Under the pieces are notes generated by a model. It had not been told where the DNA came from, ran no database searches, and worked only from the letters and a program-made list of their open reading frames with translations. The translations under genes were made by a program, and so were the position numbers. A stretch of DNA of 64,000 bases, taken from Myxococcaceae bacterium (GTDB taxonomy: Bacteria; Myxococcota; Myxococcia; Myxococcales; Myxococcaceae). Positions 32,630 to 34,417 of the stretch are shown one piece after another (within the stretch, counting starts at the first letter, position 1; every line of letters starts with the position of its first letter). The DNA lies in NCBI GenBank assembly GCA_019694595.1, contig JAIBBQ010000005.1, forward strand, positions 1-64,000, read 5' to 3'.

Positions 32630-34417
32630 ATGGCCCGTTCCCGCGCTCGCTCGAAGCCCAAGAAGGTCAAGGTCGTCTCTCGCAAGTCGGCTCGCGCCGC
32701 CAAGCCGCTGCCCAAGGGCAAGGCGGCCAAGTCCAAGCGCGCCGCTGCCAAGCCGGCGAAGGCCCCCAAGGTCGACGCCGGGCTGCGCCGCTGGGAAAGC
32801 CAGACGCTCGGGCCGGCGCTCGCCAAGCTGCCCACCCGGCGGCCGGCCTTCACCACCGACTCCGGCATTCCGATTCCCGCGCTGGCGACGGCCGCGCACC
32901 GCACCAGCACCGAGGCCGACCTCGGCTTCCCGGGCGAGTACCCCTTCACCCGCGGCGTGCAGCCCACGATGTACCGCAGCCGCCTGTGGACGATGCGCCA
33001 GTTCGCCGGCTTCGGCACCCCGGCCGACACCAACAAGCGCTTCAAGTATCTCATCAGCCAGGGCGTGACGGGGCTGTCGACCGCCTTCGATATGCCGGCG
33101 CTCATGGGGTACGACGCCGACCACTCGATGTCGCGGGGCGAGGTGGGCAAGGAAGGCGTCGCCATCTCCACGCTGAAGGACTTCGAGATCCTCTTCGAGG
33201 GCATCGCGCTCGATCAGGTCACCACCTCGATGACCATCAACGCGTCGGCGATCGTCGCGCTCTGCATGTACATCGCGGTCGCCGAGAAGCAGGGCGTGCC
33301 GATGGCCAAGCTGGGCGGCACCATCCAGAACGACATGCTGAAGGAGTACATCGCCCAGAAGGAGTGGATCGTCCCCCCGCGCCCGGCGGTGCGCATCGTG
33401 GTGGACATGATCGAGTACTGCACCAAGCACATGCCCAAGTGGCACCCGGTGTCGATCAGCGGGTACCACATCAGGGAAGCGGGGGCGACGGCGGTGCAGG
33501 AGCTCGCCTTCACGCTCGCCGACGGCATCGGCTACGTCGAGGAGTGCGTGAAGCGCGGCCTCAAGGTCGACGACTTCGCGCCCCGCCTCAGCTTCTTCTG
33601 GGACGTGCACAACGACTTCTTCGAGGAAGTCGCCAAGTTCCGCGCCGCCCGCCGCATCTGGGCGAAGACGATGAAGGAACGCTTCGGCGCCAAGGACCCG
33701 CGCTCGATGACCCTGCGCACCCACGCGCAGACCGCGGGCGTCTCGCTCACCGCGCAGCAGCCGTACAACAACGTGGTGCGCACGTCGCTGCAGGCGCTGG
33801 CCGCGGTGCTGGGCGGCACCCAGTCGCTCCACACCAACTCGCTCGACGAGACCTACGCGCTGCCCACCGAGGACGCGGTCACCATCGCGCTGCGCACCCA
33901 GCAGCTGATCGCCCACGAGTCGGGCGTCGACCGCGTGGTCGACCCGCTCGCCGGCAGCTACTTCGTCGAGTACCTCACCGACGAGACCGAGAAGCGGGCG
34001 AACGACTACATCCGCCGCATCGACGAGCTGGGCGGCATCATCCGCGCGGTCGAAGAGCAGTACCCCCAGAAGGAGATCGGCGAGAGCGCCTACCGCTTCC
34101 AGCGCGAGGTGGAGCAGGGCGACCGCCTGATCGTCGGGGTCAACGCCTTCAAGGCCGACAAGCAGACGCCGATGGAGCTGCTCCACATCGACGAGCGGGT
34201 GCAGAACGAGCAGATCGACCGCCTGAAGCAGGTGAAGGCGCAGCGCGACCAGACGAAGGTCGACGCCGCGCTCGCCAAGGTCGAGGCCGCCTGCCGCGGC
34301 ACCGACAACCTGATGCCCCCGGTGCTCGAGGCGGTGAAGGCCTACGCGACCCTGGGCGAGGTGAGCGACGTGTTCCGCAAGGTCTGGGGCGCCTACCGCG
34401 AAGGCGGCGTGTTCTAG
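32630..34417 (+). CDS. icmA: Coenzyme B12-dependent acyl-CoA mutase large subunit, isobutyryl-CoA mutase type
   Basis: TIM-barrel catalytic subunit without its own B12-binding domain. Core motifs: [93 protein letters not shown] and HTNSLDE. At the two substrate-discriminating positions it has Phe125 and Gln243, the isobutyryl-CoA mutase pair (Phe80/Gln198 in Streptomyces IcmA), not Tyr89/Arg207 of methylmalonyl-CoA mutase; the spacing of 118 is identical. About 50 N-terminal residues are Lys/Ala/Arg-rich and extra to the family. ATG 32630 was preferred to GTG 32594. The B12 subunit is icmB at 36283, after two other genes. Confidence 0.88.

Follow-up and report, generated by a model that had tools for sequence, protein, structure and literature searches.

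The open reading frame at positions 32630 to 34417 of the 64,000-nucleotide stretch of DNA analysed here (the window) is read, with a probability of about 0.8 and from sequence comparison, as encoding the catalytic subunit of an adenosylcobalamin-dependent isobutyryl-CoA mutase, which would supply butyryl-CoA oxidation and share its B12-binding subunit with a methylmalonyl-CoA mutase (MCM). Its identity as an isobutyryl-CoA mutase, already proposed in the initial annotation, is supported by three active-site residues, by the position of the protein in a tree, by replacement with the fused enzyme IcmF in sister genomes, by beta-oxidation genes near the mutase and by a Tyr/Arg paralog in the same genome. 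Isobutyryl-CoA mutase itself is a known type of enzyme, and the new element is the apparent sharing of the B12 subunit. The case would correct a predictable misannotation in many genomes and offers a natural example of one cobalamin subunit apparently serving two radical enzymes that act on different substrates, and of whole enzyme modules apparently swapped between genomes.

In the proposed mechanism the mutase protein and the B12 subunit encoded at 36283-36687, serviced by the G-protein chaperone MeaB (63.2-64.2 kb), would interconvert isobutyryl-CoA and n-butyryl-CoA by way of a substrate radical and migration of the CoA-carbonyl group. Phe125 and Gln243 would take the place of the Tyr and Arg by which methylmalonyl-CoA is held at its free carboxylate, so that the pocket could accept isobutyryl-CoA. 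We infer that the reaction most likely runs from isobutyryl-CoA, derived from valine and branched acids, to butyryl-CoA, which would be oxidised by 3-hydroxyacyl-CoA dehydrogenase (HBD), enoyl-CoA hydratase and acyl-CoA dehydrogenase, whose genes presumably belong with the mutase to one ancestral island. The features concerned are as follows.

17925..18980, plus strand: HBD (PF02737, PF00725), with a true start probably near 18140 and domains spanning residues 76-351
20520..21302, plus strand: enoyl-CoA hydratase, short-chain type (NF004475, 328 bits, cut-off of 394 not reached)
21342..22484, plus strand: acyl-CoA dehydrogenase, not reaching the cut-off of any NCBIfam model and located close to the mutase in relatives
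22965..24113, plus strand: acyl-CoA dehydrogenase, in several relatives the marker gene next upstream of the mutase
32630..34417, plus strand: catalytic (large) subunit of a B12-dependent acyl-CoA mutase, probably of isobutyryl-CoA mutase type, 595 aa, ATG at 32630
32630..32770, plus strand: N-terminal tail of the mutase, rich in Lys and Ala (28% K and 26% A over residues 1-47)
33002..33004, plus strand: Phe125 codon, at the Tyr site of MCM (by arithmetic from 32630)
33083..33085, plus strand: Ala152 codon, a column with Asp in 2-hydroxyisobutyryl-CoA mutase (HCM) references (by arithmetic)
33356..33358, plus strand: Gln243 codon, at the Arg site of MCM (by arithmetic)
34445..35593, plus strand: protein with an Imm33-like domain (PF24719, 37.5 bits), between the two mutase subunit genes
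35574..36290, plus strand: SAM-dependent methyltransferase (PF13649/PF08241), its end overlapping the start of the B12 gene
36283..36687, plus strand: stand-alone B12-binding subunit, 134 aa, DxHxxG motif DGHDRG, GTG start (TIGR00640, 165.6 bits)
36701..37663, plus strand: HMG-CoA lyase of leucine catabolism (NF004283, 415.1 bits, cut-off 246)
63204..64000, minus strand: MeaB-type G-protein chaperone, continuing past the window end (match C212:63324-64151; PF03308, 309.8 bits)

Specificity residues and tree position

Profile searches with the 32630-34417 protein gave 790.6 bits for TIGR00641 and 756.9 bits for PF01642, and a 621-bit match to the solved chain 4r3u makes its fold secure. As the initial annotation had expected, the automatic label would be MCM, the NCBIfam name of TIGR00641 being 'methylmalonyl-CoA mutase N-terminal domain'. 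The placing of Phe125 in TMRQFAGF and of Gln243 in EYIAQKEW also proved correct, in residue and in coordinate, within the frame of 595 aa. Phmmer alignments with the solved chains 4r3u, 8gju, 2xij, 5req and 6oxc were compared. The Tyr/Arg pair expected of MCM was seen in the human and M. tuberculosis enzymes and is not the pair of the window protein. For the Propionibacterium enzyme the expected Arg was found in the aligned chain 5req and the expected Tyr was not, as this chain, which we take to be the Tyr89Phe mutant, reads Phe/Arg. A distance of 118 residues between the two sites, claimed for the window protein, Propionibacterium MCM and Streptomyces IcmA, holds for 5req, where the alignment is ungapped between them; in IcmF it is 144. 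The reference numbers 89 and 207 are positions 88 and 206 of the 5req chain, one lower. The Phe/Gln pair is presumably also that of Streptomyces IcmA (Phe80/Gln198), including the enzyme of S. cinnamonensis; a literature search for these residue names together with isobutyryl-CoA mutase found nothing.

The solved IcmF of C. metallidurans (4xc6) and an IcmF from a relative (L175) both carry Phe/Gln (TRMFAGEG, KEDQGQN). A third site could be read from the alignments, where 4xc6 has the letters Phe/Ala/Gln, identical to those of the window protein, and the same triad is found in three IcmF proteins from relatives. IcmF (NF045497) differs in that a single chain holds its B12 domain and its G-protein domain, while here these are encoded by separate genes and the 595-aa frame is without either domain. 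At the third site the Ala152 of the window protein is set against Asp in the HCM enzymes. The three HCM-type references (Xanthobacter pXAUT01, Methylibium RPME01 and an Agrobacterium plasmid) have Ile at the Phe125 column and Asp at the Ala152 column, a Sinorhizobium plasmid protein reads Val/Asp/Gln, and HCM 4r3u reads Ile/Gln at the two first sites; the window protein has neither Ile (or Val) nor Asp at these columns. We assume Ile90, Asp117 and Gln208 to be the residues that matter in HcmA. Three Streptomyces plasmid proteins that were read have Tyr/Arg. Methylibium PM1 is described in a passage of PMC7176365 as possessing hcmAB. A section of PMC7238569 likewise refers to two specificity sites, citing Jost et al. 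2015, and identifies an MCM by its Tyr-92/Arg-210, and a passage of PMC7764203, citing Cracan et al., states that IcmF is widely misannotated in the same manner.

Among 158 aligned homologues, from which nine duplicates had been dropped and whose named set was fetched by patterns of which one demanded Phe, the triads were 114 Phe/Ala/Gln (FAQ), 40 Tyr/Ala/Arg (YAR), 3 Ile/Asp/Gln (IDQ) and 1 Val/Asp/Gln (VDQ). The absence of any mixed pair from these 158 argues that the pairing of the residues is not due to chance. A tree of 103 rows was built by a quick method, with the three triad columns removed and SH-aLRT as the only support measure. The four triads require three changes on it, the minimum possible. 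All YAR rows lie on one side of a branch with support 98, and the IDQ rows are likewise set apart with 99. The 32630-34417 protein stands among the FAQ rows, outside the YAR clade, and a placement within true MCM, named beforehand as the outcome that would contradict the initial annotation, was thus not observed. The FAQ state needs two changes, so split Phe/Gln (F/Q) enzymes and IcmF are not one demonstrated clade, and Phe/Gln may for this reason be older than the other states. Support was below 80 for 32 of the 100 inner branches, and one protein (L172) sits on a long branch. The rows include IcmF, with characterised split IcmA outside the tree and RcmA outside the comparison.

Gene surroundings and the probable fate of the product

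In the window the relevant genes are scattered: HBD to the acyl-CoA dehydrogenases occupy 17.9-24.1 kb, the genes from mutase to HMG-CoA lyase 32.6-37.7 kb, with 8.5 kb between the beta-oxidation genes and the mutase, and MeaB adjoins RNase III at 62.5-64.2 kb, on the strand opposite to the mutase genes and almost 30 kb away from the mutase. More compact arrangements are found in relatives. Three loci (L044, L049 and L052) run from HBD through enoyl-CoA hydratase and two acyl-CoA dehydrogenases to the mutase, the B12 gene and HMG-CoA lyase, and in two others (L054 and L056) the genes are HBD, acyl-CoA dehydrogenase, mutase, B12 gene and MeaB. The window layout may represent an ancestral island that has been broken up. 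MeaB and RNase III, adjacent in the window (62488-64000), are one gene apart in L044, where they close the mutase cluster, hinting at an old linkage of the two. At 60573-62459, three consecutive minus-strand genes resemble peptidyl-prolyl isomerases, all below curated cut-offs. The Imm33-like gene is found in part of the family loci, HMG-CoA lyase lies near the B12 gene in relatives too, and many relatives have the methyltransferase (33-54% identity) close to the mutase.

Of 19 F/Q loci (L043-L061), 8 have HBD close to the mutase; within the stretch read it was found neither in the other 11 nor in six further loci (L077-L082) of family f1. Other neighbour counts were made on loci of at least 9 kb, with marker queries from the window, L169 and L066 that favour close versions of each gene. 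In the named set (L084-L174), some of whose loci are from Myxococcota, enoyl-CoA hydratase accompanied 14/48 FAQ and 0/20 YAR genes, and methylmalonyl-CoA epimerase 2/48 and 11/20, respectively. Differences in the same set were not significant for acyl-CoA dehydrogenase (16/48 against 3/20, p 0.15), for HBD (4/48 against 0/20, p 0.31) or for the frequency of a B12 gene. Among Myxococcota loci fetched by place, a B12 gene was present in 13/18 F/Q and 0/13 Tyr/Arg loci, and biotin carboxylase in 0/18 and 8/13. The contig labels of the stand-alone Phe/Gln mutases read include Myxococcota, Chloroflexi, Acidobacteria and archaea. A cluster in Syntrophothermus lipocalidus (Slip_0757-0760), proposed for isobutyrate degradation in the passage of PMC5017805 that concerns it, likewise combines separate N- and C-terminal domain proteins of an isobutyryl-CoA mutase with a MeaB-like protein, a likeness by description and not by sequence.

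Some other acyl-CoA, for example isovaleryl-CoA or pivalyl-CoA, could be the main substrate and tie the mutase to the adjoining leucine genes. HMG-CoA lyase is the neighbour of the B12 gene, in L044 it is followed by a carboxyltransferase and an acyl-CoA dehydrogenase (before MeaB and, one gene on, RNase III), and IcmF has some pivalyl-CoA mutase activity. Genes for butyryl-CoA oxidation are, however, equally close in relatives, and we consider this substrate assignment improbable. An HCM/RCM-type 2-hydroxyisobutyryl-CoA mutase delivering 3-hydroxybutyryl-CoA to the nearby dehydrogenase is very improbable, even though the best solved match of the window protein is the HCM large subunit 4r3u (621 bits, against 518 for human MCM), both enzymes have split subunits and Gln at the Arg position, and HBD is near the mutase in relatives. 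This assignment was rejected on residues, tree and gene context: Phe125 and Ala152 stand where the three references have Ile and Asp, the IDQ references form their own branch (99), and all three IDQ loci carry a gene for an acyl-CoA ligase between those for the B12 subunit and MeaB, whereas none was recognised among the part of the window reading frames that was scanned. Neither of two genes of the usual valine route, MMSDH and HIBADH, gave a match over cut-off in the genome that contains the window, which fits valine carbon leaving through the mutase; this is weak evidence, since MMSDH has a sub-threshold match (366.7 against 448.5 bits) and among 14 control genomes only 1 has HIBADH over its cut-off.

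One B12 subunit and two catalytic subunits

The genome to which the window belongs (G000; 7.28 Mb, 99% complete, 394 contigs) contains two PF01642 genes, the F/Q gene at 32630-34417 and a Tyr/Arg paralog of 553 aa (C347:9643-11355), which is also a stand-alone catalytic subunit. The 134-aa B12 subunit named in the initial annotation was confirmed at 36283-36687, with its GTG start, and is the only TIGR00640 domain over cut-off in this genome; two stand-alone catalytic subunits are therefore set against one B12 subunit of mutase type. MeaB at 63204-64000 is likewise the sole PF03308 match. Nine matches to the broader PF02310 family include the B12 subunit. The others are combined with MerR domains (L005), an aminomutase dimerisation domain (L007) or radical-SAM domains (L008, L009 and L010), or belong to a sigma-54 response regulator (L011) or to a 1271-aa frame (L004) taken, from its length and a weak TIGR00640 match, as a putative methionine synthase. 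The last (L006; 679 aa, no other domain) may be a B12 protein serving the Tyr/Arg paralog.

The initial annotation had seen a match to IcmA/IcmB in the split into catalytic and B12 subunits. This argument was dropped: the Tyr/Arg paralog is itself split, and in 14 of 33 Tyr/Arg loci (at least 9 kb) a B12 gene or domain lies no more than 3.5 kb away, so that the layout is no evidence. The IcmA/IcmB system of Streptomyces cinnamonensis, as outlined in a part of PMC2847961, has a large subunit and a separate B12-binding part and performs the isobutyryl-CoA/butyryl-CoA reaction. The likeness is one of description, not of sequence, and the present system differs in that the B12 gene is close by and its product apparently shared with an MCM catalytic subunit. 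From gene counts, the B12 subunit is probably shared and not a dedicated IcmB.

In family f1 a split F/Q gene was found in 31 of 96 genomes (30 of these genes read as Phe/Ala/Gln; that of G110 was judged by identity). Exactly one mutase-type B12 domain, stand-alone, was present in 28 of the 31, counted with TIGR00640 at E 1e-20, a threshold at which the B12 domain of IcmF goes uncounted and a very divergent domain would escape. The remaining genomes have one stand-alone and one fused domain (G098 and G101) or three (G103). A second stand-alone catalytic subunit is present in 29 of the 31 (six read as Tyr/Arg, the others judged by match); the two genomes without it, G098 and G101, are also the two F/Q genomes with a fused MCM. 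Among the matches listed, a stand-alone Tyr/Arg gene and a fused MCM never occur together in f1, and the stand-alone Tyr/Arg subunits of these 29 genomes are found only where the Phe/Gln-B12 locus is present. A third PF01642 match was obtained in G108 and G139, and four in G103, where two further mutase catalytic genes on contigs C38 and C81 each lie beside a B12 domain of their own.

Assembly gaps do not explain these counts, because two catalytic subunits with a single B12 domain are also found in single-contig genomes of f1 (G065 and G066) and of family f3 (G031, G032, G033 and G042). Some f3 genomes speak against the pairing: B12 and Tyr/Arg genes occur in G034 with no F/Q gene found, G046 gave no B12 match, and G048 and G049 have F/Q and B12 genes with no Tyr/Arg gene found. 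A contig labelled Deltaproteobacteria (L108) holds on a single strand, within 12.7 kb, an F/Q gene, one B12 gene, MeaB, a carboxyltransferase and a Tyr/Arg gene. Service of the single B12 subunit to both catalytic subunits, the second most likely a true MCM, is predicted as a point added to the initial annotation and is well supported by gene counts. Such sharing was not found among the titles and abstracts listed from the open-licence literature, nor in the available portions of PMC7238569 and PMC7764203, and among the literature matches listed for isobutyryl-CoA mutase with myxobacterial names the enzyme name was absent.

Exchange of the split F/Q enzyme with IcmF

An IcmF model matched 85 of 195 genomes of the phylum at E 1e-200, and at this threshold IcmF has no match in the genome of the window. 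In f1 the split F/Q enzyme alone is found in 30 of the 96 genomes, IcmF alone in 59, both in one (G101) and neither in six (G068, G072, G141, G143, G144 and G145, four of them less than 90% complete). The exclusion has a Fisher p of 8e-18 with relatedness ignored, and the two states stand side by side within the genera g3, g8 and g19. Of the 65 f1 genomes without an F/Q gene, 62 have a fused MCM, with a fused B12 domain, and 59 have IcmF. The exchange is no general rule, since three f3 genomes (G035, G036 and G039) have both IcmF and the split F/Q enzyme; a single locus in G122 contains a mutase small subunit, a fused MCM and IcmF. Taken together, it appears likely that isobutyryl-CoA mutase and MCM catalytic subunits alternate on one B12-loaded subunit with one MeaB, and that this split module and the pair of fused MCM and IcmF have been interchanged repeatedly within genera. 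If so, the supply of a single B12 subunit would couple valine and isobutyrate metabolism to that of propionate.

That the 32630-34417 protein is itself an MCM tolerating Phe/Gln, with the Tyr/Arg paralog as the odd one, is hardly credible and was rejected on residues, tree and gene context: the enzymes belong to one catalytic-domain family, the top family name is that of MCM and the B12 gene is close to the window gene and not to the paralog, but the paralog has the Tyr/Arg pair of MCM (2xij, 6oxc), many Tyr/Arg loci have epimerase or biotin carboxylase neighbours (the latter near 8/13 Myxococcota orthologs of the paralog and 0/18 F/Q genes), the tree separates the two, and it is IcmF with which the F/Q enzyme is exchanged.

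The isobutyryl-CoA mutase proposed here is further marked by its N-terminal tail of 47 residues, which resembles histone H1. The corresponding stretch has at least 15% Lys in 25 of 29 orthologs of f1, and elsewhere in 2/15 other Myxococcota F/Q proteins, 3/33 other F/Q proteins and 3/17 Tyr/Arg proteins.
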